Source of the DNA: Ferruginibacter sp.
GTDB lineage: Bacteria; Bacteroidota; Bacteroidia; Chitinophagales; Chitinophagaceae
Direction of reading: 5' to 3'
Assembly: GCF_028288465.1 (NCBI RefSeq)
Contig: NZ_JAQBNR010000011.1
Span: 124,001-188,000, forward strand
Length of the DNA: 64,000 nucleotides
Shown piece by piece: positions 15,972 through 29,493 of this stretch. The position numbers and the translations under genes were made by a program. The notes beneath the pieces are model-generated. The model was given only the letters and a program-made list of their open reading frames with translations, was not told the origin of the DNA and did no database searches. Positions within the stretch are counted from its first letter, which is position 1, and every line of letters starts with the position of its first letter.

Positions 15972-17039
15972 TCAATAACGTTTAGCCCTGTCATACTGTA
16001 CCGGCCATGCAATGTCTTCGCCCAGTTCTTTTGCCGCATGTAAAGGAAAATACGGATCCCGTAAAAACTGGCGGGCAAGGATAATCAAATCAGCCTGGCC
16101 GTTTGCCAATATATTTTCTGCTTCGGTTGCGGTAGTAATTAAACCAACGGCACCGGTTAATAAGGGAGTTTCTTTTTTTATTTTTTCTGCAAACGGTACC
16201 TGGTACATAGGTACCAAAGGAATTTTTTGTTCCGGTGAATTTCCTCCGGATGAACAATCAATCAGATCAACGCCCACCTCTTTTAATTTATTTGATAGTA
16301 GTACCGAATCTTCTTCCGTCCATCCACCGGTTACCCAGTCCGTTGCGGAGATGCGAACAAACAGTGGCAATTTTTCTCCCATTATTTTACGGGTGTCTGA
16401 GGCAATTTCGAGCAACAGCCTTGTCCTGTTTTCAAAACTGCCGCCATATTCATCTATGCGTTTATTGCTGAGTGGTGATAAAAATTCATTGAACAAATAC
16501 CCATGGGCGGCGTGCAATTCAATTACTTTGAAACCTGCTTTCAGCGCACGTTGGGTGGCAGCAGCAAAATCATTTTTTAGTTTGGCGATGTCTTCACCCG
16601 TCATTGCTTTTGGCAGCGGTTCACCGTTGGTATGTGCAATAGCGCTGGGAGCTATGGTCTGCCAGGCTCCTTCTTCAGCAGTTAACGGTTTGTTGCCTTT
16701 CCACGGTACATGGTGACTTGCTTTCCGGCCTGCGTGCGCCAGTTGTATACCAGGTACAGAACCCTGAGACTCAATAAAACTGGTGATACGTTTTAAGAAA
16801 TCAACCTGTTCATCTTTCCAGATACCCAAATCACCAGGCGAAATTCTTCCTTCAGGAGAAACGGCTGTTGCTTCCATAATTATAAGCCCGGCACCGCCTA
16901 CTGCACGACTGCCCAGGTGTACGAGATGCCAGTCGTTGGCAAAACCATCGGTGGCTGAATATTCGCACATTGGTGAAACGGCGATCCTGTTTTTAAACTG
17001 AATATCCCTTATTGTAAGCGGTTGAAAAAGTAATGACAT
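15972..17039 (-). CDS. namA: old yellow enzyme family NADPH dehydrogenase (YqjM-like)
   Basis: The 355-residue FMN TIM-barrel protein has the YqjM/NamA subgroup features: FKNRIAVSPMCEYSA with the flavin-tuning Cys and Tyr, GIQLAHAGRKAS, the substrate-binding pair in IELHAAHGYL, and RIDEYGGSFENR. These enzymes reduce activated C=C bonds of enones and nitro-compounds with NADPH. There is no signal peptide. The gene is monocistronic and diverges from the sulfatase operon across about 690 nt. Confidence 0.9.
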   Translation of the reverse strand: MSLLFQPLTIRDIQFKNRIAVSPMCEYSATDGFANDWHLVHLGSRAVGGAGLIIMEATAVSPEGRISPGDLGIWKDEQVDFLKRITSFIESQGSVPGIQLAHAGRKASHHVPWKGNKPLTAEEGAWQTIAPSAIAHTNGEPLPKAMTGEDIAKLKNDFAAATQRALKAGFKVIELHAAHGYLFNEFLSPLSNKRIDEYGGSFENRTRLLLEIASDTRKIMGEKLPLFVRISATDWVTGGWTEEDSVLLSNKLKEVGVDLIDCSSGGNSPEQKIPLVPMYQVPFAEKIKKETPLLTGAVGLITTATEAENILANGQADLIILARQFLRDPYFPLHAAKELGEDIAWPVQYDRAKRY

Positions 17040-17187: not shown

Positions 17188-17219
17188 TTTGGTCATAATT
17201 AAAAATCGTCGTTTATTTG
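17188..17219 (+). promoter_or_regulatory. promoter of the sulfatase operon leader
   Basis: TTTG (17188-17191), 20 nt, then TTTATTTG (17212-17219), one mismatch from TAnnTTTG. The last G is also the first base of the inverted repeat at 17219-17237, the same register as in the two other sulfur promoters of the window. Confidence 0.6.
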
Positions 17220-17237
17220 TCTATCAAAATAGTAGAC
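17219..17237 (+). promoter_or_regulatory. 19-bp operator-like inverted repeat (sulfatase operon)
   Basis: GTCTATCAAAATAGTAGAC, with five perfect outer pairs and one inner pair. It matches the repeats at 34780-34798 and 37515-37533 in length, outer bases and position against the promoter -7 element. A bound dimer would cover the predicted transcription start. Confidence 0.7.
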
Positions 17238-17318
17238 TAATAGTTTACCGAGAAAAACATTTCAAATTTAAGGCAGCTTTTAACCACCATCAGCTGCCGC
17301 AGTTTTAAAAAAACTAAC

Positions 17319-17411
17319 ATGAATCTTTCCAACAAAAGTATGCGCTCAGCCGCATCGGTGGTAGTACGTTATTTTCAATCCTGCAGCAAAGTCTGTTGTT
17401 GCTGCTGTTGA
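17319..17411 (+). CDS. polycysteine leader peptide of the sulfatase operon
   Basis: An ATG at 17319 opens a 30-codon ORF whose last ten residues are SCSKVCCCCC, with five consecutive Cys codons (TGT TGT TGC TGC TGT) directly before TGA. It begins 82 nt after the operator and 320 nt before the SusC start. The Cys codons lie in the 3' arm of a 7-bp hairpin (GCAGCAA 17383-17389 with TTGCTGC 17399-17405). Short polycysteine ORFs act as cysteine-responsive attenuators in mycobacteria. Here a ribosome stalled by scarce Cys-tRNA could switch on sulfatase genes; that role is inference. Another hairpin, GGCAGCT/AGCTGCC (17272-17298), precedes the ATG. Confidence 0.65.
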   Translation: MNLSNKSMRSAASVVVRYFQSCSKVCCCCC

Positions 17412-17441
17412 TCTTTCAGCCTTGCAATCTTTCATTTTTAA

Positions 17442-17627
17442 TTACGTGAGCTTGTTATTGCGGTATTTTATTTCGTAATACCTATGCCTGTCGTAACCCT
17501 GTACCAGTGGCGTGTTAGCCGGTGGTTGGCTACTGTTATTTGTACAGGTTACGCCAGGTATCAATATCATAGCAATTAATATAAACCCCGCACGTGAGGC
17601 GGGTTTCACCAAGGCATTTTTGCTCAT
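17442..17627 (-). CDS. possible small exported protein, antisense to the leader region
   Basis: A 61-codon ORF reads MSKNALVKPASRAGF, then a hydrophobic stretch ILIAMILIPGVTC, then a polar linker (TNNSSQPPANTPL) and an aromatic/basic tail (YDRHRYYEIKYRNN). It looks like a short lipoprotein, but the bases before the Cys (GVT) are a poor lipobox. It overlaps the structured leader of the sulfatase operon on the other strand, so either the ORF or the RNA fold may be accidental. No family was recognised. Confidence 0.4.
   Translation of the reverse strand: MSKNALVKPASRAGFILIAMILIPGVTCTNNSSQPPANTPLVQGYDRHRYYEIKYRNNKLT
17462..17622 (+). promoter_or_regulatory. structured leader RNA with mutually exclusive stems
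   Basis: Stem A: GGTATT (17462-17467) with AATACC (17477-17482). Stem B: ATACCT (17478-17483) with AGGTAT (17556-17561), continued by GTAACCCTGTAC (17493-17504) with GTACAGGTTAC (17542-17552, one bulged C) and inner pairs CAGT/ACTG and AGCC/GGCT. A and B share bases and exclude each other. A final hairpin AAACCC(C)GC / GCGGGTTT (17583-17606) is followed, 10 nt later, by TTTTT. This is the layout expected of an attenuator between the Cys leader and SusC, but an alternative is a coding sequence on the minus strand. Confidence 0.45.
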
Positions 17628-17730: not shown

Positions 17731-20700
17731 ATGAGTACAATTAAATTATACAATAAGGCAAAGCTGTTTATCATAACGGCATTGCTGGCGCTGAAAATTT
17801 TTCCATCCATTGCACAGGATGGAGTGCTGACAAATATTACGGGCCGTATTATAGAGCAGAAAACAAAAAATGGATTAACTGGTGCGACGATACACCTGCA
17901 GGGCTCTACCAATACAGTAACCACGGATGAGAAGGGTGCATTCAAACTAACCACTTATAAAAAAGCACCCTTCCTGCTTTCCATCAGTTTTGTTGGCTAC
18001 CAATCGCAGGATATACAAGTTACGGACAGTGAACCTGTAACGGTTACGCTTGCTGAAACTTCTAACCAGTTATCGGAAGTGGCAGTTGTTGGGTATGGAA
18101 CACAAAGAAGAAAAGACGTCACGGGTTCAATTGCCACCATACCCAGGGAAAATCTGAACCAGATAACACCTTCTTTTGATAATCTTTTACAAGGCGCTGT
18201 TGCCGGACTAAACGTTACACAAAGCTCCGGGCAGCCGGGCGCTACTTCCAGCATCAGGATACGCGGTGGAAACTCGCTGAGTTTTGGTAATGATCCATTG
18301 TATGTAATTGATGGATTTATTTATTATAATGATAACGGGTTGACGAATCTCAATCCTGCTTCCGGATCAGCCGTGACAGGGGTTTCCACCAATGGGTTGG
18401 CTACCATTAATCCAAGCGATATCGAGTCGATCGATGTATTAAAAGATGCCTCCGCTACAGCCATTTATGGTTCAAGGGGAGCGAACGGTGTGGTAATCAT
18501 TACGACAAAAAAAGGTTCTAAAGGCTCCAACAATATTTCTTATACCGGTTCTTATGGAACACAGCGGGTGGATAAAAGAAATGATGTGCTCACCGGTCCC
18601 CAATGGGCAAAACTGTTTGATGATTTATACAAGGCAACGCCTACTATCCAGGTTGGACTGGCTGGCAACAAAAGGGTCATCGATTCATTGGGTGCGGCCG
18701 GAGTAAATGCGGATTGGGCCGGAGAAGCCATCCGCAGAGGCAACTCTCAAAATCACCAGTTAAGTATTTATGGCGGTGATGAAAAATCCCGGTATTCTAT
18801 CCAGGGAAATTATTTTAACCAGGAGGGCACGCTGATAGCAACCGATTTTAAACGATACTCAGCACGCTTTAATTACGAGAAGAATTTTACATCCAAACTA
18901 AAAATTGCTACCAGCATTTTCGGGAGCAATTCAAACGAAAATAAATTAAGAGGCTCCGCATATAATGATATTGGTTTCAGCAGTGCTTATTCGTCTTTGT
19001 ATTTAACCAATCCTTTGCAGACCATTAAAAACGCAGACGGATCATACAATACGACCCTGCAGCCGGCGCTGGGTGGTACAATCAATACTATCAACGGTCA
19101 GCAATATGCAGATAATCCTATCCAGGCAATTAATTCAATTACCAATCAAACAAAGCTTTCCCGGTTGCTAGGCAATTTTTCTGCCGAGTACAAATTACTG
19201 GATGGCTTAACAGCAAAGACAACTTTCGGTACGGATATGTTAAATACCAAGCTGTATTATTTTGCACCTTCCTATACAGCTGCCGGTAACTCTAGCGGTA
19301 CGATTGCAGGCTCGGGTTCAGTTGGTACAATCAATTATATTGGTTGGCTGAATGAAAATACAATCACCTATGATCACTCATTTAAAGCCAAACATTTTAT
19401 TAACCTGCTGGCGGGTTACACAACACAATACCAAAAATCAGAAAATACTTTTCTTGCTGGAACAACTTTTCCTTCCGATGCTTTAGGATACAATAATTTA
19501 TACCTGGCTACCGCCAATAAAGTGACCGGCTCAGGCGAGGCAAAACAAACCTGGAATTCATGGCTGGGCAGGGTTTCTTATTCATTTGAACATCGTTACA
19601 ATTTAACCGTATCAGGCAGGTTCGACGGAGCCTCTACAACAGGCGCCAATAACAAATGGGGCTTCTTTCCATCTGTTGGATTTTCCTGGAATGCATCAGA
19701 TGAGAAGTTCTTAAAACAGTTTGATAAAATCATCAGCAACGCTAAATTAAGGTTGACAGCCGGCCGTGCAGGCAACGCCAATTTCCCTGCCTACAGTTCA
19801 ATAGCCACCATCAACTCCAACGGTTATTATTTCGGTAGTCCGCTCTCGGCGGTAAACGGATTGTCGCCGACACAGCCATCCAATCCTGATTTATCATGGG
19901 AAACAACCACGCAATACAATGCAGGAATTGACCTCGGTTTTTTTCATAACAGGATAACGTTGACAGGTGATGTATACTATAAAAAAACAACCGATTTGTT
20001 TATCAGCGGTGGTGGTTTGATTCCACTGGCAACGGGCTATTCAACTATTTCTGAAAACATCGGCAGCCTTGAAAACAAGGGTCTGGAACTGTCACTTACA
20101 ACAGAGAATATTAAGACCACGGATTTCTCCTGGAAGTCAACACTGATCTATGCAAGAAACGTAAGTAAAATTTTGAGCCTCGGTCCAAGCAAATCTTTTC
20201 AACCTGTGGCACCGACAGGGCAGGTATCTCCTGTGATTGTAAAAGTGGGGCTTCCGGTGGGTACGTTTTGGGGATATAGTACAGACGGTTTGCTTACTAT
20301 GGCGGATGTATACGGGGAAGCACCAGCACCAAAATTATCAGGTGTATCTCAGCAAACAGGCGACAGGAAATACCTGCATGCAGCCGGTGTTACAGGCAAG
20401 TCTATTACTACCACCGACAAGCACAACCTGGGCAGTGCACAGGCAAAATTTACAGCCAGTTTCAGCAATACCCTCAGTTATAAGGATTTTGATCTGAACT
20501 TTCTTTTCCAGGGATCTTTTGGCAATAAAATATTTAACCTGTTGCAACAGCAATTAGAAAAAACAACTACTACAAGTAATGTTTCTGCTGTGTTGCTGGA
20601 CAGGTGGGATTCTGTAGCCAATCCAAAAGGCCGTTTTCCTAAAGTCGTGAATGCGCCTGTGGTACAGGTCCAGGATACCTACATTGAAGATGGCTCTTAT

Positions 20701-20937
20701 GTGCGCTTAAAAAATATTTCCCTGGGTTATAATTTCCCTAAAAAGTTTGCATCAAAAATCGGCGCCAAACAAGTTAAGCTGAATGTATCTGCTCAAAATG
20801 TATTAACCATTACATCTTATACAGGTGCTAATCCCGAAGCCAATTTCTACGACCAGAATAACCTGCAGCCGGGTATTGACTTCGGTGTATATCCCAATTA
20901 TAAAACCTACCAGGTTGGTGTAACGGTTATCTTCTAA
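17731..20937 (+). CDS. SusC/RagA family TonB-linked outer membrane protein
   Basis: I take the ATG at 17731 (MSTIKLYNKAK), which gives a signal peptide ending near SIAQ; an upstream TTG at 17698 is less likely. The ~1068-residue protein has the N-terminal carboxypeptidase-like domain (ITGRIIEQKTKNGLTGATIH), the TonB-contact and plug region (VVGYGTQRRKDVTGSIATI, YGSRGANGVVIITTKKG) and a C-terminal beta barrel ending in VGVTVIF. It is the channel of a SusCD importer, powered by TonB. Because two sulfatases and their activating enzyme follow, the cargo is probably a sulfated compound. Confidence 0.95.
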   Translation: MSTIKLYNKAKLFIITALLALKIFPSIAQDGVLTNITGRIIEQKTKNGLTGATIHLQGSTNTVTTDEKGAFKLTTYKKAPFLLSISFVGYQSQDIQVTDSEPVTVTLAETSNQLSEVAVVGYGTQRRKDVTGSIATIPRENLNQITPSFDNLLQGAVAGLNVTQSSGQPGATSSIRIRGGNSLSFGNDPLYVIDGFIYYNDNGLTNLNPASGSAVTGVSTNGLATINPSDIESIDVLKDASATAIYGSRGANGVVIITTKKGSKGSNNISYTGSYGTQRVDKRNDVLTGPQWAKLFDDLYKATPTIQVGLAGNKRVIDSLGAAGVNADWAGEAIRRGNSQNHQLSIYGGDEKSRYSIQGNYFNQEGTLIATDFKRYSARFNYEKNFTSKLKIATSIFGSNSNENKLRGSAYNDIGFSSAYSSLYLTNPLQTIKNADGSYNTTLQPALGGTINTINGQQYADNPIQAINSITNQTKLSRLLGNFSAEYKLLDGLTAKTTFGTDMLNTKLYYFAPSYTAAGNSSGTIAGSGSVGTINYIGWLNENTITYDHSFKAKHFINLLAGYTTQYQKSENTFLAGTTFPSDALGYNNLYLATANKVTGSGEAKQTWNSWLGRVSYSFEHRYNLTVSGRFDGASTTGANNKWGFFPSVGFSWNASDEKFLKQFDKIISNAKLRLTAGRAGNANFPAYSSIATINSNGYYFGSPLSAVNGLSPTQPSNPDLSWETTTQYNAGIDLGFFHNRITLTGDVYYKKTTDLFISGGGLIPLATGYSTISENIGSLENKGLELSLTTENIKTTDFSWKSTLIYARNVSKILSLGPSKSFQPVAPTGQVSPVIVKVGLPVGTFWGYSTDGLLTMADVYGEAPAPKLSGVSQQTGDRKYLHAAGVTGKSITTTDKHNLGSAQAKFTASFSNTLSYKDFDLNFLFQGSFGNKIFNLLQQQLEKTTTTSNVSAVLLDRWDSVANPKGRFPKVVNAPVVQVQDTYIEDGSYVRLKNISLGYNFPKKFASKIGAKQVKLNVSAQNVLTITSYTGANPEANFYDQNNLQPGIDFGVYPNYKTYQVGVTVIF

Positions 20938-20956: not shown

Positions 20957-22543
20957 ATGAAACAAACAATAATAGCATCTTCTTTAGCAGTTTTATTAGC
21001 AAGCTTGTTAACCTCCTGCAATAAGCTGAAAGAAAATCCACTCGGTAATTTAACACCGGGAAGCTTTTACCAAACACAGTCGGATGCGGTGGCAGCAGTT
21101 ACCGCAGTCTACAGTACGCTAAGTACCGACATCAATAATGATTTCGCAATCTATGGCCGTAACCTGAATTTGGTGGTAGACAACCCGAGCGATAACCAGG
21201 TGTACAGTCCGTCCAATACCAACCCTGATGTGAGGGCTTTGGGCACGGCAACTTATGTAAGCACCAACGACAGGGTGCGTAAAATATACGGGCAGTTATA
21301 CTGGAGTATCAACAAAGCAAATATTGCCATTGATAACATTCCGGCGATACCTGCGGCGCAGTTTTTAGATCCTTCGCATAGTGCACTAAACCTGGTAAGA
21401 GAAGCCAGATTTATCAGGGCCCTGGGTTATTTTAACCTGGTGCGTTTGTTTGGTGACGTGCCCGTAGTGTTACACGATTTAACCTCACTTAACGTGAATG
21501 ATTTGAAAATAAACAGAACACCAAAAGATTCGGTTTACCTGCAGATAAAGGCTGACCTGGATTCTGCAACGCTGTTACCCGATACGTATTTTGGCGCAAA
21601 CGTGGGGCGTGTTACAAGCGGTGCTGCACATGCTTTGCTGGCAAAAGTGTATACAACGCATTACGAATGGGACAAGGCAAAAACTGAGTTGGAAAAAGTT
21701 ATTTCCTCAGGAACCGGTTTTACAAATACAACTGGCAATTATGGCTATGATCTTTTTTCAAAATTTGCAGATGTGTTTCAGCCCGCAACAAAAAATGGTA
21801 AAGAGCATATTTTCTCAGCACAGTTTAATGGAACCGCCGGCGGTTTTGTAAGCAACCAAAGCCTTAGTTCTTTTACCTGGAGTACGTCTGCATATACAGC
21901 AGATATACCTGCCGATGCATCCGTGATAGAAAATTTATTTAATGCAGAAGACCAGCGCCGCTCCACAACTTTTTATGATTCATTGTATAATCAGTCAACA
22001 CAAAAATGGGCCAGATGGCCGTTCTATAATTTCTTAAAATTTGTTGATCAGAGCCCTGGTTTTACAGCAGCGCTTCCCGGCAGCCAGGGCGGCAGCAGCA
22101 AAGTCAATTTTCCTGTGCTGCGCTATGCGGATGTGTTGTTGTTGTATGCAGAAGTGCTGAATGAAATCAACGGCGCACCCACGCCGGATGCGTACCATGC
22201 CATTAATATTGTTCGTGGCAGGGCTTTTAACTCCTACAGTGGTAATGGTAATTATTCAAAAGATGCGTATGATTTACCATCGGGCTTAAGCCAGGCAGAT
22301 TTCAGGGATTCTGTTTTTACAGAAAGAAGAAGAGAGTTTATACAGGAAAGCCAGCGCTGGTTTGATTTGGTAAGAAGAACAGACAAAGGCCCCGGTCAAT
22401 ATTATTTAGATGCTGTAAAAAGCATGCCCGGAAATCCAAAAGCGGCCGCCACATTAAAGGACACCTTGTTCCCCATTCCACAGACAGAAATTGATTTGTA
22501 TGGGGGCACCAATCCAAATTTTAAACAAAACCCGGGCTGGTAA
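20957..22543 (+). CDS. RagB/SusD family outer membrane lipoprotein
   Basis: This 528-residue lipoprotein has a signal ending in LLTSC (lipid-anchored Cys near residue 21). It shows the SusD fold pattern: EARFIRALGYFNLVRLFGDVP, VNFPVLRYADVLLLYAEVLNE and the C-terminal RRREFIQESQRWFDLVR. It forms the lid of the SusC channel and binds cargo at the cell surface. It starts 19 nt after susC. A GC-rich hairpin element separates it from the first sulfatase and may lower expression of the downstream genes. Confidence 0.95.
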   Translation: MKQTIIASSLAVLLASLLTSCNKLKENPLGNLTPGSFYQTQSDAVAAVTAVYSTLSTDINNDFAIYGRNLNLVVDNPSDNQVYSPSNTNPDVRALGTATYVSTNDRVRKIYGQLYWSINKANIAIDNIPAIPAAQFLDPSHSALNLVREARFIRALGYFNLVRLFGDVPVVLHDLTSLNVNDLKINRTPKDSVYLQIKADLDSATLLPDTYFGANVGRVTSGAAHALLAKVYTTHYEWDKAKTELEKVISSGTGFTNTTGNYGYDLFSKFADVFQPATKNGKEHIFSAQFNGTAGGFVSNQSLSSFTWSTSAYTADIPADASVIENLFNAEDQRRSTTFYDSLYNQSTQKWARWPFYNFLKFVDQSPGFTAALPGSQGGSSKVNFPVLRYADVLLLYAEVLNEINGAPTPDAYHAINIVRGRAFNSYSGNGNYSKDAYDLPSGLSQADFRDSVFTERRREFIQESQRWFDLVRRTDKGPGQYYLDAVKSMPGNPKAAATLKDTLFPIPQTEIDLYGGTNPNFKQNPGW

Positions 22544-22677: not shown

Positions 22678-24522
22678 ATGAAAAAGACAATTGCATACGC
22701 AATCATAGTTATTGGCTTGTTGCCATTGCGGGTAAAAGCGCAAAATGATACCGAATTTAAAGGTGTTATCGGCAAAACATTGGGCGAATCAAAAGAGTGG
22801 TGGGCTGCACCTGTAAAAGCACCGGCAGGGGCACCCAATGTTGTATGGATTATTTTAGATGATGTAGGCTTTGGTGCTTCCAGTGCATTTGGGGGGTTAA
22901 TCCGTACCCCTACATTGGACAGTCTTGCCAACAATGGTTTAAGGTACACCAACTTTCATACCTGTGCCATTTGCGCTCCAACAAGATCGGCATTGTTGAC
23001 CGGGCGCAACAGTCATTTCGTGCACGTGGGCGGCTTCTCTCATATTGCTTTGTCTGCTGGTTTTCCCGGTTATGATGGAAGGCTGCCGGCGAAAGATGGT
23101 ACCATCGCAGAGATTTTACGGGACAATGGTTACAACACATTTGCTGTAGGCAAATATGGGGTTACGCCAGATGAAGAATCAACCGACGCAGGACCTTTTG
23201 ATCACTGGCCATCCGGAAAAGGCTTTGAACATTTCTTTGGATTTTTGGGGTCTCAAACCGATCAGTATAAACCAGACCTGGTTGAAGACAATGCGCATGT
23301 TACGCCTGATGGACGACACTTAAGTGAGCAAATGACCGATAAGGCAATCAGCTATATTGCCCGCCAGCAGAAGAATGCACCGGGTAAGCCTTTCTTTTTA
23401 TATTACTCACCGGGTGCAACGCATGCACCGCACCAGGTAGATAAATACTGGAGCGATCAGTACAAAGGAAAATTTGATGAAGGATGGGATGTATTCCGCG
23501 AAAAGGTTTTTGCCAATCAAAAAAAGCAGGGTATCATACCAGCCAATGCGCAGCTGCCGCCACGCAACGCAAGGGTACAGGAGTGGAACTCGCTATCCGC
23601 AGATCAGAAAAAATTGTTTGCCCGCTTTTTTGAAGTGTATGCAGGCTACCTCACCTACACAGATTTTCAAATAGGCCGTGTGGTGAATTATTTAAGAGAA
23701 AACAATTTGCTTGACAACACAATTGTATATGCTATCATCGGAGATAACGGCGCCAGCAAGGAGGGGACGTTGGAAGGTTCTATAACGCCTGCAACAAACT
23801 CCGCCCGCAAAAAAACGCAGGCTGATTATTTAAAAACCAATCTTGTGAATATTGATTCAATCGGCACAGCAGCAGGGTTTGCCAATTATCCGTTGGGATG
23901 GGCGCAGGCAGCCAATACCCCTTTCAGGGAATGGAAACAGGATGCGGATGCAGAAGGTGGAACACATAACCCGCTCATTATTTTCAATCCAAAAAATATA
24001 AAAGAGAAAGGTGGCATCCGCAACCAGTACGGACATGTAATAGATTTGTTGCCCACTACATTAGAGTTTTTAAAAATCAATACACCGGAATATGTGAGAG
24101 GCATAAAACAGGACAGCATCCAGGGAACATCGTTATTGTATTCTTTTGCTGATGCCAAAGCGCCATCAAGGCATACCATTCAGCATTACTACATTTTTGG
24201 CTCCCGCTCTATTTACTACAACGGCTGGAAGGCTGAAGCAGCGCACCATCCGGACAATGTTGATTTTGATTTTAAGCCGGGCGAAACAGTTGCAGACAAG
24301 GGCTTTGATGATGATGTATGGGAACTCTACAATCTGAATGAAGACTTTAATGAACGCAATAACCTGGCAAAAAAATATCCTGAAAAGTTGGCAGAGTTGA
24401 AAAAAATATTTGATCAGCAGGCTGAAAAAAATCACCTCTATCCGTTGATCGACTGGCATGATGTGAACAATAAAAAAATCCATCATCCAAATGGAAGCGA
24501 TACACAGGCACCAATAAAATAA
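22678..24522 (+). CDS. arylsulfatase, first copy
   Basis: The 614-residue protein has a signal peptide ending near RVKAQ, so it is periplasmic. The sulfatase core shows the metal ligands in VVWIILDDVGFG (Asp61, Asp62) and the maturation motif C-A-P-T-R-S-A-L-L-T-G-R with Cys99, which must be converted to formylglycine. Later come GRHLSEQMTDKAI, GDNGASKEGT and GGTHNPLIIF. Size and layout resemble PAS/AtsA-type alkyl/aryl sulfatases used to scavenge sulfate. The matching maturation enzyme is the last gene of the operon. Confidence 0.93.
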   Translation: MKKTIAYAIIVIGLLPLRVKAQNDTEFKGVIGKTLGESKEWWAAPVKAPAGAPNVVWIILDDVGFGASSAFGGLIRTPTLDSLANNGLRYTNFHTCAICAPTRSALLTGRNSHFVHVGGFSHIALSAGFPGYDGRLPAKDGTIAEILRDNGYNTFAVGKYGVTPDEESTDAGPFDHWPSGKGFEHFFGFLGSQTDQYKPDLVEDNAHVTPDGRHLSEQMTDKAISYIARQQKNAPGKPFFLYYSPGATHAPHQVDKYWSDQYKGKFDEGWDVFREKVFANQKKQGIIPANAQLPPRNARVQEWNSLSADQKKLFARFFEVYAGYLTYTDFQIGRVVNYLRENNLLDNTIVYAIIGDNGASKEGTLEGSITPATNSARKKTQADYLKTNLVNIDSIGTAAGFANYPLGWAQAANTPFREWKQDADAEGGTHNPLIIFNPKNIKEKGGIRNQYGHVIDLLPTTLEFLKINTPEYVRGIKQDSIQGTSLLYSFADAKAPSRHTIQHYYIFGSRSIYYNGWKAEAAHHPDNVDFDFKPGETVADKGFDDDVWELYNLNEDFNERNNLAKKYPEKLAELKKIFDQQAEKNHLYPLIDWHDVNNKKIHHPNGSDTQAPIK

Positions 24523-24680: not shown

Positions 24681-25781
24681 ATGGCGCTGGATAAAGTTTT
24701 AGCAAAAAAAATCGGGAAAGACATTAGCGTAAGCCTTTTCATTTATGCACTTCCCGTGGTTGCCCTCTTTGCCTATTTCGCAATCAAGGGTCAAACCCCA
24801 TGGGTAAACAATACCCATCAACCGGCCAATGTAGATGTGCCGGCCGTATTTAAGTTTTTAGAACCTGCATTGAAAAATATCAGGTCATGGGGCTTTTTGG
24901 TAATTGCATTGGTGCTGGGTGCAATAGAATTTGCACTTGGTTTGTATGATAACAAATGGACAAAGAGTGAGCGCAAGGTGGACATCGTTTGTTTTTTAGC
25001 GCCTAAGTTTTTGCTGCCACCGGTAACTGCTTTTTTTAGTCTGAAACTGTTGCCATTGATATTGCCTGGTCTTGCCAATGAATTTTCATGGGTGCCTTTC
25101 TGGGCGGGCTTTTTTATCATCGCAGTCGCGGATGATTTAACACAATACTGGTATCATCGCCTGCATCACCAGGTGCCTTTTTTATGGCGTTTTCACCGTA
25201 CGCATCACTCAGCTCCTTACATGGGTATGGCCATGGCGAGCAGGCAGAATTTTATTTACACAGTTTTCTTTTCGCAGATCTATTTAACGGCAGCCCTTAT
25301 TTATTTAGGACTTGGTTTTCCGGCATTGGTGGTGACTGTTATCAAATCGTTCATTACGCTTTCGGCACATTCAAGTATCGCCTGGGATAAACCACTTTAT
25401 AAATACAAGGCGTTGCACCCTATAGCATGGGTATTGGAAAGATTGATATCTACACCTGCTACGCACCAGTCGCATCATGCCGACACCGTTGGTGATGGCG
25501 TTGGTAACTACAAGGGTAATTTTGGCAACATGTTTTTTTTGTGGGATGTAATTTTTAAAACGGGCATCATCACCCGCAGGTATCCAACAACCTTTGGTAT
25601 TAAATTTTACAAACAGGAAGAATGGTATGCACAATTCTTATGGCCCATCTTTAAGTCGAAAGTGGCAGGGAGTGAACTTTCTGCTAACGGGCCCGAGGTT
25701 GGCGACGAAGTAGGTCCGGTACTTTTTGATGAATCCGATCTGTATGTTTCGAAGCAATTAAAAAGAGAGGCTGTTGCATAA
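24681..25781 (+). CDS. sterol desaturase / fatty acid hydroxylase family membrane protein
   Basis: The 366-residue integral membrane protein has about five to six hydrophobic segments and the three His clusters of the di-iron hydroxylase superfamily: YWYHRLHHQ, WRFHRTHHS and HQSHHAD. Such enzymes hydroxylate or desaturate lipids at the inner membrane. Its place among sulfatases is unexpected. It may process the lipid-like part of a sulfated substrate (a sulfolipid or steroid sulfate, for example), but this is inference from context only. Confidence 0.88.
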   Translation: MALDKVLAKKIGKDISVSLFIYALPVVALFAYFAIKGQTPWVNNTHQPANVDVPAVFKFLEPALKNIRSWGFLVIALVLGAIEFALGLYDNKWTKSERKVDIVCFLAPKFLLPPVTAFFSLKLLPLILPGLANEFSWVPFWAGFFIIAVADDLTQYWYHRLHHQVPFLWRFHRTHHSAPYMGMAMASRQNFIYTVFFSQIYLTAALIYLGLGFPALVVTVIKSFITLSAHSSIAWDKPLYKYKALHPIAWVLERLISTPATHQSHHADTVGDGVGNYKGNFGNMFFLWDVIFKTGIITRRYPTTFGIKFYKQEEWYAQFLWPIFKSKVAGSELSANGPEVGDEVGPVLFDESDLYVSKQLKREAVA

Positions 25782-25852: not shown

Positions 25853-26836
25853 ATGAACACAATGAAAAAGACAGTATTTTTTACGTTGCTTGCGCTGATT
25901 GTTACAGCAGGTAAAGCGCAAACCGCTTCAACGTTGCGCATTACCGGAACAAGATTTACCTTTCCCATATTTAAAAAATGGGCGGAAGAGTACAGGAAGG
26001 TTCATCCTGAAGTTACCATCCAGGTTGCATCCGGTATACCTGCAGATAGTGCAGACATTTTGATTGCGTCGCACATACTACAACCGGGGGATGTAAAGGA
26101 GGGACAAACCAGTGTTGCCCTAACCCGGTACGTGCAACTGCCGGTTGTAAATAGTGCAAGGCCTGATTTAAATATACTTACCGGGAAAGGCTTTACAGAA
26201 GCAAATTTCAGGCAGATTTATTTTACAGATGCAAGTGCCGCCAATGGTTTCAATAGTTCGTATACAGTGTACAAGCGCCAGAAAGCCGCCTGTTCTTCCG
26301 TGGCATTTGCCAATCACTTTGGTGGTGATCATAAGGATATAAAAGGAACGGGCGTAGCCGGCGATGACCAGGATTTGCTGGAAGCTGTAAAGGCTGATGT
26401 CAATGCGGTATCTCACAACAGCCTGGGTATTATCTACAATATTCAAACAAGAAAAGTGAATGACAGCATCGCAATCGTTCCGATTGATTTAAACGAAAAT
26501 GGAAAGATAGATGCAGAGGAAAAAATATATGCAACATTGGATGGGGTAGTGTTATTTGTTGAAAAAACAAATCATCCCAAAATCCCAACAGAAAATGTAA
26601 ATGTAATTTTCAGTGAAACAAAAAATCACCAGTTAGTGACTGATTTTTTAACGTGGGTAATTGCAAAAGGCCAGCAATTCAACCATCAATTTGGCCTGCT
26701 GAATTTAAGTGCTTCCACCGTACAACAGGAGCAGGCGTTGCTTGTTAAAACAGATGTGTTAAAATCGTGTACGCCTTCTTTGACTGGGTTAAAGAGCAAT
26801 ACTGTAAAAGGTGAGATAAAAACTAATAGTCAATAA
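25853..26836 (+). CDS. periplasmic substrate-binding protein (PstS-like fold)
   Basis: This 327-residue protein has a signal peptide ending near AGKAQ (Met4 at 25862 is an alternative start). It then reads LRITGTRFTFPIFKKWAEEY, HPEVTIQVASGIPADSADIL and SLGIIYNIQT, the pattern of type 2 periplasmic binding proteins that hold oxyanions such as phosphate or sulfate. No ABC permease is encoded nearby, so it is an orphan. In a sulfatase operon it might hold the released sulfate or an organosulfate. The insertion VPIDLNENGKIDAEEKI resembles an EF-hand-like loop. Confidence 0.75.
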   Translation: MNTMKKTVFFTLLALIVTAGKAQTASTLRITGTRFTFPIFKKWAEEYRKVHPEVTIQVASGIPADSADILIASHILQPGDVKEGQTSVALTRYVQLPVVNSARPDLNILTGKGFTEANFRQIYFTDASAANGFNSSYTVYKRQKAACSSVAFANHFGGDHKDIKGTGVAGDDQDLLEAVKADVNAVSHNSLGIIYNIQTRKVNDSIAIVPIDLNENGKIDAEEKIYATLDGVVLFVEKTNHPKIPTENVNVIFSETKNHQLVTDFLTWVIAKGQQFNHQFGLLNLSASTVQQEQALLVKTDVLKSCTPSLTGLKSNTVKGEIKTNSQ

Positions 26837-26920
26837 ACTTTGCCCGGTCCGGTTGCGACCGGATAAAATTGTTACCTGATATAAACCACGTGATAGGTTT
26901 AATAAGGATATTTGTTTAAC

Positions 26921-28363
26921 ATGAAGAGAAAAATTTACCGGCGTTTATTAATGGTTTGCCTGCTTATGCTATGGTTGTTGCGAGCAAATGCACAGACACA
27001 TAGAGCAAAACCAAACATTGTTTTCATTTTAGCAGATGATCTTGGGTATGGTGACATTGGCATCAACGGACAAAAATTAATCCGCACACCCAACATCAAT
27101 CAACTGGCAAAAAGCGGGATGGTGTTTAAACAATTTTACGCAGGCGCTACCGTGTGTGCACCATCCAGATCAGCGTTGCTGACGGGCCTGCATACCGGGC
27201 ATACGTTTATACGTGGCAACGCAGGGGTATCACCTGAAGGTCAGCAACCCATCCCGGATTCTGTTCTCACATTCACAGAAATATTAAAACAGGCAGGCTA
27301 CAGAACAGGTGCGTTTGGTAAGTGGGGATTGGGTCCTGTAGGTTCTTCCGGCGACCCCAATAAACATGGCTTTGATGTTTTTTACGGCTACAATTGTCAG
27401 AGTTTGGCGCACCGGTATTACCCAACACATTTTTGGAGCAACAACCAAAAAATAGAACTCGAAGGCAACGCCGGTTTTCTACAACAAAAACAATATGCAC
27501 CCGATTTGATTCAACGCCAGGCTATTGATTTTATCAGCGCCGATGATGGCAGTAAACCATTCTTTTTGTTTTTGCCCTATACATTACCGCATGCGGAATT
27601 AGCCGTGCCGGATGACAGCATTTTTCAATACTACAAAGGCCGGTTTAAAGAAACACCTTATAAGGGCAAGGATTATGGTGCCGGAGCAGTATCGGATGGC
27701 TATGCATCACAGCAATACCCGCACGCAACATTCGCTGCGATGGTCAGCAGGCTGGATATGTATGTGGGACAGGTAGTCAGCAAATTAAAAGAGAAAGGCC
27801 TGGAGAAAAATACGCTGATCATTTTTACGAGTGATAATGGTCCGCACATGGAAGGCGGTGCTGATCCCGTTTTTTTTAACAGCGGCGGCGGCTTTCGCGG
27901 TACAAAACGCGACCTTACCGAAGGCGGTATCCACATCCCTTTTATCGCCAGCTGGAATGGTGTAATAAAGGCCGGAACAACCACGCAACATGTGGGCGCC
28001 TTCTGGGATTTGTTTTCCACTTTTGCTGAACTGGCAAATGCCAAACCGGCAAAGCAAACAGACGGTATTTCATTTCTTGCGACACTTACCGCAAAAAATA
28101 AACAACAACATCACGATTACCTTTACTGGGAGTTTCACGAGCAAGGCGGCAAACAGGCCATAAGAAAAGCCAACTGGAAAGCCATTCGCTTACTGGTAGA
28201 TTCCCTGCCGGACGGACCTGTTGAATTGTATGATTTATCAAAAGATCCGGGTGAAAAAAATAACCTGGCGTTCCGTTATCCTGCTAAAGCAAAAGAATTA
28301 AAATTGCTGATGGACAAAGCACATGTCCGGTCAGCATTGTTTCCATTTAAACACGAAGAATAA
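26921..28363 (+). CDS. arylsulfatase, second copy
   Basis: The start is ATG 26921, as the longer frame would begin with TTG. A signal peptide ends near RANAQ. The ~480-residue sulfatase shows PNIVFILADDLGYGDIG (metal ligands), the formylglycine motif VCAPSRSALLTG with Cys at about residue 79, GKWGLG, FTSDNGPHMEG and the C-terminal ELYDLSKDPGEKNNLA. Its compact N-terminal half matches the sulfatase A-like S1 group, different from the first copy, so the two should have different substrates. The next gene starts 2 nt after its stop. Confidence 0.93.
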   Translation: MKRKIYRRLLMVCLLMLWLLRANAQTHRAKPNIVFILADDLGYGDIGINGQKLIRTPNINQLAKSGMVFKQFYAGATVCAPSRSALLTGLHTGHTFIRGNAGVSPEGQQPIPDSVLTFTEILKQAGYRTGAFGKWGLGPVGSSGDPNKHGFDVFYGYNCQSLAHRYYPTHFWSNNQKIELEGNAGFLQQKQYAPDLIQRQAIDFISADDGSKPFFLFLPYTLPHAELAVPDDSIFQYYKGRFKETPYKGKDYGAGAVSDGYASQQYPHATFAAMVSRLDMYVGQVVSKLKEKGLEKNTLIIFTSDNGPHMEGGADPVFFNSGGGFRGTKRDLTEGGIHIPFIASWNGVIKAGTTTQHVGAFWDLFSTFAELANAKPAKQTDGISFLATLTAKNKQQHHDYLYWEFHEQGGKQAIRKANWKAIRLLVDSLPDGPVELYDLSKDPGEKNNLAFRYPAKAKELKLLMDKAHVRSALFPFKHEE

Positions 28364-28365
28364 CC

Positions 28366-29493
28366 ATGAAGCAATTAAATTTTAGTAGGGCAATACTGAT
28401 AATACCAACCATTGCATGCATTACCTTAATCACGGCTTTTACAAAAAAGAAAAGAGGCAACGATGGGGTAGCTGGTTTAGTCGCCCATGAAAAATTAAGC
28501 TGTATAGCATGCGTAAGTACATCCGCAAAAATACCTTCCCGTTCATTTGCCTTTAAAATGGTGTCGTTTGAAAATAGTGTTGTTGCGGATAACAACATCA
28601 GTGAAGAAATGAAATTAATCCCAGGTGGAACATTTAAAATGGGTACGGATGAATATGAAGATTGCAAGCCCGTTCATAGTGTTACTTTAAAGCCATTCCT
28701 GATGGACGAACATGAGGTAACGAATGCACAGTTTGAAAAATTCGTCAAGGCGACAGGTTATAAAACAATTGCTGAACGTCCGCTGAATCCGAAAGATTAT
28801 CCGGGTGTTGCAAAACAAAAATTGGTGCCGGGTTCTGCCGTATTTACACCAACCGAAAAACCTGTTTCACTGGAAGATCCTTACCAATGGTGGGTGTATC
28901 TGCCCGGTGCTAACTGGAGACATCCCCGCGGTCCTTCAAGTTCCATTGCAGGAAAATTAAAAGAACCCGTTGTACAGATATGCTACGCAGATGCATCGGC
29001 TTATGCAAAATGGGCAGGTAAAAGATTACCTACTGAAGCGGAATGGGAATTTGCCGCGAGGGCTGGAAGGCCCGCTACCAAATACTATTGGGGTGGTGAG
29101 TTGAAGCCCGGCGATAAATGGGTGGCCAATATCTACCAGGGTAATTTCCCGGATCACAATACGAAGGAGGATGGATTCAGTGGTGTAGCGCCGGTGAAAT
29201 CTTTTCCCGCCAACCCGTATGGTTTGTATGATATGGACGGAAATGTGTGGGAATGGTGCAGTGATTTGTACCGGCCCGATTATTATAAAAGTAGTCCTGC
29301 CAATAACCCGAAAGGTCCGGCTGATAGTTTAGACCCCGATGAGCCCGGCCTTGAAAAACATGTGCAAAGAGGAGGGTCATTTATTTGCAGCGATCAGTAT
29401 TGCATCCGGTATAAAGCCGGCAGCAGGGGTAAGGGCGAAACCTCCAGTGCAGGTAATAATTTAGGGTTCCGTTGTGTGAAGGATGTGAAATAG
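28366..29493 (+). CDS. formylglycine-generating enzyme family protein
   Basis: The 375-residue protein has an N-terminal hydrophobic segment (FSRAILIIPTIACITLIT), so it is exported or membrane-anchored. The FGE-sulfatase domain starts at MKLIPGGTFKMGTD and includes LPTEAEWEFAARAG and DMDGNVWEWCSD. The C-terminal RGGSFICSDQYC carries two Cys (341 and 346) at the positions of the copper-binding pair of true FGEs, and NNLGFRCV closes the domain. This supports real O2-dependent sulfatase maturation rather than a mere FGE-fold protein. It is the last gene of the operon, 2 nt after the second sulfatase. Confidence 0.9.
   Translation: MKQLNFSRAILIIPTIACITLITAFTKKKRGNDGVAGLVAHEKLSCIACVSTSAKIPSRSFAFKMVSFENSVVADNNISEEMKLIPGGTFKMGTDEYEDCKPVHSVTLKPFLMDEHEVTNAQFEKFVKATGYKTIAERPLNPKDYPGVAKQKLVPGSAVFTPTEKPVSLEDPYQWWVYLPGANWRHPRGPSSSIAGKLKEPVVQICYADASAYAKWAGKRLPTEAEWEFAARAGRPATKYYWGGELKPGDKWVANIYQGNFPDHNTKEDGFSGVAPVKSFPANPYGLYDMDGNVWEWCSDLYRPDYYKSSPANNPKGPADSLDPDEPGLEKHVQRGGSFICSDQYCIRYKAGSRGKGETSSAGNNLGFRCVKDVK

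Follow-up and report, generated by a model that had tools for sequence, protein, structure and literature searches.

The window analyzed here, a stretch of 64,000 nucleotides from Ferruginibacter sp. (Chitinophagaceae), contains an operon for a SusC/SusD importer and sulfatases that is preceded by a short open reading frame (ORF) ending in cysteine codons. Is this ORF a leader peptide on which the ribosome reads the supply of cysteine, and if so, how would a stalled ribosome act on the operon? The ORF occupies positions 17319-17411 (+), comprises 30 codons from ATG to TGA and encodes the peptide MNLSNKSMRSAASVVVRYFQSCSKVCCCCC; at loci L208 and L209 unrelated peptides that also end in Cys runs stand in its place. 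Its last five codons, TGT TGT TGC TGC TGT (17394-17408, +), lie directly 5' of the TGA and form the proposed sensor. An NADH:flavin oxidoreductase gene (15972-17039) lies upstream on the opposite strand, and 319 nt separate the leader stop from the SusC ATG at 17731. This gap also holds an antisense ORF of 61 codons (17442-17627, -) with a lipoprotein-signal-peptide-like start, which may be due to chance. A scan of the window against Rfam gave no match at the gathering threshold.

Annotation of the downstream genes with Pfam, all on the forward strand, identified a SusC-type TonB-dependent receptor (17731-20937; its first 403 residues, contained in L031, match NCBIfam TIGR04056), a SusD-type lipoprotein (20957-22543; PF07980, PF14322), a sulfatase (22678-24522; PF00884), a fatty-acid-hydroxylase-family protein (24681-25781; PF04116), a weakly PBP-like protein (25853-26836; PF12849, 23.1 bits, under the cut-off of 27), a second sulfatase whose start codon is uncertain (26912-28363; PF00884) and FGE, the sulfatase-maturating enzyme (28366-29493; PF03781). 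The sequence-only reading of this DNA had claimed a 30-codon ORF ending in five Cys codons ahead of an operon for two sulfatases, their maturation enzyme and SusCD; the ORF is present as described, and Pfam bears out the operon while adding the fatty-acid-hydroxylase and the PBP-like (below cut-off) proteins. The PF04116 family is also that of the first gene after the Cys leaders in L104 and L153.

The same reading had placed a sulfur-type operator upstream of the leader, and this claim is likewise supported. A search of positions 17195-17440 against 244 genomes of the family returned one recurring short match, found in many genera, around 17216-17242, where the palindromic operator TTTGTCTATCAAAATAGTAGACTAATA of the sulfur/cysteine regulon is exact in the window (17216-17242, +). 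With up to three mismatches allowed, this pattern was found in 45 of 147 Chitinophagaceae genomes, versus 2 matches in all for a reversed control pattern. The left half of the operator contains the TTTG of a putative Bacteroidota-type -33 element; 21 nt after it stands a candidate -7 element, TAGTTTAC (17241-17248, +), the Bacteroidota -7 consensus being TAnnTTTG. In sequence, the leader ATG lies 76 nt 3' of the operator end in the window and 0 to 173 nt from it across the set. The transcript 5' region is thus likely to be long at the window and very short at loci with a spacing of 0-3 nt. At four loci (L133, L149, L150 and L151), a second operator-like copy is seen by eye between the Cys leader and the start of a TonB receptor, and could serve as a road-block or a second promoter.

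The window contains a single copy of the bare motif TGYTGYTGYTRR (a stop preceded by three Cys codons), and shuffled sequences lead one to expect 0.52 occurrences. Therefore, the window alone is no proof of function, which has to come from comparison with other genomes. One set of loci was selected by match to the operator (at most three mismatches) and not by Cys codons, and was searched for ORFs of 6-60 codons carrying a run of three or more Cys close to the C-terminus, no more than 220 nt downstream of the operator. Such ORFs were found at 32 of 210 oriented operator sites, the window's own included; the 210 oriented sites represent approximately 131 physical sites, most being palindromic and counted in both directions. 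Dinucleotide shuffles of the same sites averaged 0.35 such ORFs and never exceeded 2 in 100 rounds, and control windows elsewhere in the same loci contained Cys-run ORFs in 22 of 4800 cases. Among runs of other residues at operator sites, leucine came next (15/210), and the remaining residues reached at most 3. A Cys leader is missing from most operator sites, as the approximately 131 physical sites compare with 32 in-frame runs.

A second set was selected through the importer. With the window SusC as query, 59 genomes of the window's genus yielded 30 loci that were read, one per genome out of a longer list of matches. The operator is present at five of these (the window being one), and at each of the five an ORF terminates in a Cys run, while no C-terminal Cys run was found upstream of SusC at the 25 loci without the operator; one of the latter, L215, has an internal CCC in an ORF. 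Two of the five are true orthologs of the window SusC (68% and 63% identical), preceded by copies of the operator with 3 and 2 mismatches, respectively. Their leaders, in L251 and L252, read MQTLHSHAGYGKQKELLILSIFFSSIYCCC, ending in SSIYCCC, and MLSSLRYTYTALNCIKAITFPCCCCCC, ending in FPCCCCCC, and appear unrelated by eye except for the Cys end. Both operons retain SusC, SusD, a sulfatase, the fatty-acid hydroxylase and FGE. Loss of the ORF or of its Cys codons from homologous regions had been named as the observation that would count against the leader, and both orthologous operons keep an operator copy together with a Cys-run leader. Sulfatases were considered as a constant partner of leader-led SusC operons and rejected, as tblastn matches (E 1e-8) to the window's sulfatases occurred only in L251 and L252 out of 23 loci. 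L243 contains an SfnG/SsuD-related monooxygenase that scores under the SfnG cut-off. Elsewhere in the window genome (L288:4707-5000), a TonB receptor lies beside what reads as a siroheme-synthase-like gene, with two operators; the leader there reads by eye MNKLAGTRFSVISKRRCCTELTVK, with two adjacent Cys, and its relatives in L149 and L150 have three.

A third set was built on cysH, using TIGR02055 as query and the best 74 of 94 full-length family matches listed. An ATG-initiated ORF of 4-60 codons whose final eight residues include three or more Cys was found no more than 450 nt upstream of cysH at 27 of these 74 loci, versus 1 of 74 on the antisense strand. The 27 include the window genome's own cysH, whose leader is MLLFPSIMQYQKCCSNKCCCC, with an operator-like site at 4 mismatches; from reading that sequence, cysD follows cysH. 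The other 47 loci lack a Cys-tailed ORF, four of them (L360, L372, L388 and L392) despite a nearby operator-like site. By the same criterion, 3 of 13 cysH loci in another Bacteroidota family (f15) and 2 of 35 in other families have such an ORF, with no antisense case in either; at a longer reach, two f15 loci (L257 and L258) have leaders ending in NNCMCCC and RACACCC. The feature is therefore commonest in Chitinophagaceae and thinly present outside.

A collection of 84,980 species genomes was scanned for the combination of an operator half-site with three subsequent Cys codons and a stop, which returned 36 loci. Of these, 35 belong to Chitinophagaceae, Chitinophagales, Chitinophaga, Niabella, Ferruginibacter or Bacteroidetes and have an in-frame ATG, and the last, L186 of Thermodesulfobacteriota, lacks a leader ORF and was treated as chance. 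The scan is no test of Cys conservation because the Cys codons and the stop belonged to the query. The peptides it recovered diverge widely between lineages, near relatives sharing parts. In Chitinophaga, the loci of PhyH group A (L175-L205) have a conserved small hairpin, GCGG..CCACC..CCGC, between the leader stop and the PhyH start. That the window ORF is a chance ORF, with the operon regulated by the operator and its factor alone, agrees with the 0.52 expected occurrences of the bare motif but is barely credible against the enrichment in three differently selected sets (operator, SusC and cysH) and the retention of the Cys codons in orthologous operons.

The peptide itself could be what acts, either by sensing metals or redox state through its Cys residues or by serving as the precursor of a modified peptide. 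Cys-rich C-termini bind metals and thiols, and Cys runs could sense oxidation. However, the leaders range from 4 residues (MCCC) to more than 40, with N-termini unrelated even between orthologous operons, and they stand alike before importers, cysH, PhyH genes and one tRNA-Cys. No maturase occurs among the families listed for the 33 genes directly behind leaders (25 of 56 families in one scan). An acting peptide is accordingly very improbable.

The Cys codons could also be a by-product of a UGU-repeat RNA element, recognized by pairing or by a protein, in which the reading frame is irrelevant. They are able to pair with gene-start regions in the alignments of PhyH groups A and B, and the window contains a TGTTGAT/ATCAACA complementarity. 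Reading frames speak against such an element: of 35 Cys-codon runs no more than 300 nt from an operator, the Cys frame is open from an ATG in 32, the Val/Ala frame in 5 and the Leu frame in 8, and all 32 meet a stop within 12 codons. Of 75 control runs taken from other parts of the loci, 14 have an open Cys frame. This result therefore indicates selection for Cys codons in the reading frame and not for an RNA repeat, and on it an RNA-only reading of the runs was rejected. In addition, both TGT and TGC are used (257 and 90 times), and interrupted patterns such as CCSNKCCCC and CMCKQCAGCC occur. A UGU-repeat element thus appears quite improbable, and on the sequence evidence selection acts on the Cys codons as codons, within a sulfur regulon.

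The content of this regulon was examined from both the leaders and the operators. Among 33 scanned genes right behind Cys leaders, 15 belong to the SusC family, 6 are PhyH genes, 2 encode PAPS reductases and 2 fatty-acid hydroxylases. The sulfur-pathway genes directly behind leaders are the sulfatase/FGE operon, PAPS reductase and one tRNA-Cys. Two general features of ribosome-mediated amino-acid attenuators, a Cys-codon-rich upstream ORF and pathway genes downstream, are present as judged from annotation. Three proteins of approximately 220 residues directly behind Cys leaders (L069:1683-2354, L090:722-1378 and L130:1173-1835) are candidate unknown sulfur genes; those of L069 and L090, scanned singly, had no Pfam or NCBIfam match.

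The operator-site loci comprise the pattern matches and further sites hand-picked for operator match from the similarity list. Genes starting no more than 330 nt from an operator on either side number 108, of which 103 were scanned (four from near-duplicate genomes and an ORF overrunning the L155 tRNA gene were left out). They include 30 genes with a TonB-receptor plug domain, 4 PAPS-reductase-domain proteins, 6 thioredoxin/AhpC-type proteins, 2 siroheme-synthase matches and 2 Cys/Met PLP enzymes matching cystathionine gamma-synthase, as well as O-acetylhomoserine sulfhydrylase, cysteine desulfurases and a type 2A encapsulin. Some are divergent neighbors and need not be regulated. No repressor family stands out in the 25 families listed of the 70 and 103 matched. 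The encapsulin is SrpI-like, and the desulfurases at operator sites are of the encapsulin-cargo type, which suggests, from the identity of these genes, that sulfur storage belongs to the same regulon.

Transfer RNA genes were predicted with ARAGORN in 120 loci (119 of the 140 loci L031-L170, and L289; L110, a duplicate inside L289, was removed). The 16 genes found are 15 tRNA-Cys, each from a different genome, and one tRNA-Arg. A same-strand operator with at most four mismatches lies upstream of 12 of the 15 tRNA-Cys genes, at 34-531 nt in nine and at approximately 1.6-1.7 kb in three, and an intervening gene may be present at the longer distances; none was found upstream of the other three. 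The nine at 34-531 nt are L289:4783-4856 (-) and those in L057, L093, L107, L131, L148, L154, L155 and L157. In the window genome, the operator is followed by tRNA-Cys, a homoserine-dehydrogenase-like gene and a Cys/Met-metabolism-like gene, the protein names being from reading the sequences. L155 has a leader ending in RCCCTSNI between the operator and tRNA-Cys, and most other tRNA-Cys loci have no Cys leader. A single tRNA species is thus apparently under transcriptional control together with the regulon of its amino acid.

The window ORF is very probably a cysteine-sensing leader peptide, one of a convergent family in a Chitinophagaceae sulfur/cysteine regulon. A presumed transcription factor would act at the operator, and the transcript would first present a short ORF with Cys codons at or just before its stop. 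With sufficient Cys-tRNA, the ribosome would complete the leader and depart, and operon expression would be reduced; with scarce Cys-tRNA, it would stall at these codons, so that the genes downstream would be expressed. In the window, the stall would switch on an importer and sulfatases that free sulfate from sulfate esters. We infer leader translation, stalling, the cysteine response and its direction; confidence is high for the sensing step and low for the output step.

For the output, classical attenuation would have the stalled ribosome favor an antiterminator over an intrinsic terminator. The gap between leader and SusC contains a long imperfect inverted repeat (17484-17561, +; arms 17484-17498 and 17547-17561) that encloses a terminator-like hairpin (17514-17532), and in L155 a terminator-like hairpin overlaps the Cys run. 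L208 and L212 have, by eye, long hairpins of unrelated sequence at the equivalent place. However, the T run of the window hairpin is weak, and intrinsic-terminator-like structures occur in only 4 of 87 leader-to-gene intervals versus a mean of 1.1 in 10 shuffles, on which intrinsic terminators were rejected as the general mechanism. Classical attenuation is therefore unlikely.

In mycobacteria, the start site of the next gene is sequestered and a stalled ribosome uncovers its ribosome-binding site. Canestrari et al. (2020) reportedly described polycysteine leaderless short ORFs ahead of mycobacterial sulfur operons. Translational attenuation of this kind, in which a structure concealing the next gene's start is disrupted by the stalled ribosome, was modeled by masking the Cys codons in RNA folding, a start being scored as opened above 1 kcal/mol. 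In a mixed set of 59 loci (3 longer ones of 62 were left out, the window's among them), the Cys mask opened the start in 10 of 59, an upstream mask in 1 of 54 and a gap mask in 5 of 54, with a median of approximately zero. At cysH a mask for a ribosome stalled at the tail's first Cys opened the start in 14 of 29 loci versus 7 of 29 for the upstream mask (means of 1.8 versus 0.4 kcal/mol), the cysH ATG being taken as the first long open ATG, which is possibly wrong at some loci. Openings of at least 3.5 kcal/mol occurred in L032, L044, L171, L359, L378, L389, L395 and L397, although in L389 the control mask also reached 3.8. The Cys mask opened the SusC start at none of five window-type loci (the window, L208, where the automatic start is doubtful, L209, L212 and L230). 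Start-site sequestration is thus unsupported as a general mechanism by the mixed set and the SusC loci and fits part of the cysH loci only; as an account of the leaders it is possible but doubtful.

A mixed output is put forward tentatively, at somewhat short of an even chance and with weak conviction. At SusC operons including the window's, Rho-type termination would occur in a G-poor leader region unless a stalled ribosome shielded it, as in tnaC; at part of the cysH genes, the stall would release a sequestered start region. A pyrimidine-rich, G-poor stretch directly behind the leader stop (17412-17440, +) is, from its base composition, a weak candidate for a Rho entry region. Leader regions have a higher C over G than leaderless control regions (p = 1.7e-6 and 4.0e-6). 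When the region behind the leader stop is compared with the rest of the locus, the bias has p = 0.0004 in the cysH set and p = 0.155 in the operator-selected set; it is position-unspecific in the latter, and Rho is therefore weakly supported. The likeness to E. coli tnaC lies in a proposed stall at the end of the leader ORF beside a region that Rho would use. In tnaC, free tryptophan is sensed by nascent-peptide arrest, whereas codon starvation is proposed here.

Leaders of this type had been considered as described in mycobacteria, with no description known in Bacteroidota. The first statement can be extended. Cys-run leaders are known in mycobacteria (PMC4633059, PMC9094748), are predicted before cys operons and cbs in Propionibacterium and Bifidobacterium (PMC1262725), and a two-Cys upstream ORF before cysS in Rhodobacterales, uORFC-8-2, is proposed to act by ribosome-mediated attenuation (PMC8632094). 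The second statement stands: no description of Cys-run leaders in Bacteroidota was found in the literature searched, which lay mostly outside subscription journals. The accessible text on Flavobacterium psychrophilum infers leader-peptide attenuation for amino-acid operons without naming cysteine (PMC9723704), and that on the B. thetaiotaomicron map mentions leader-like sORFs, none tied to cysteine (PMC7366714).

Like the mycobacterial leaders, those of Chitinophagaceae are short ORFs with consecutive Cys codons before sulfur operons, at many loci with one sensed residue. Unlike them, they belong to another phylum, are coupled to a shared operator and precede SusC/SusD importers and, once, tRNA-Cys; the window ORF is, judging by its position behind the operator, probably not leaderless, and start-site sequestration was not found there in the folding model. 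We interpret the Chitinophagaceae leaders as attenuators that sense Cys-tRNA and that are convergent with those of mycobacteria. They share with the actinobacterial leaders Cys runs near the stop codon and the absence of a conserved terminator, for which the authors of that study, in the part available, suggested Rho, as in tna (PMC1262725); they differ in that the latter precede cys operons and cbs, with no operator or TonB-receptor link stated in that part. With uORFC-8-2 they share tandem Cys codons and a proposed ribosome-mediated attenuation, while the accessible account of that ORF gives it two Cys codons within a stem, an intrinsic terminator and a single target gene (PMC8632094).

The operator and the leaders may together form a two-layer circuit, for and against which the case is evenly balanced: one operator factor would drive importers, sulfate reduction and tRNA-Cys, and the leaders, placed on many of the same transcripts, would read the pool of charged tRNA-Cys. 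Leaders would spread in this circuit by repeated independent origin, because any ORF that ends in Cys codons would suffice. If true, the cell sets both the signal (charged tRNA-Cys) and the quantity of its carrier molecule.

Few accounts exist of amino-acid attenuation through leader ORFs in Bacteroidota, and the usual view of SusC/SusD importers is that they respond to substrate and not to the need of the cell. Under the proposed sensing, the supply of cysteine would govern importers, sulfatases and genes of sulfate reduction via the ribosome. The Cys leaders also mark uncharacterized TonB receptors, PhyH proteins and other proteins as related to sulfur, and the many leaders, sharing little but their Cys codons, constitute a natural mutational series for the origin of a ribosome-read regulon.
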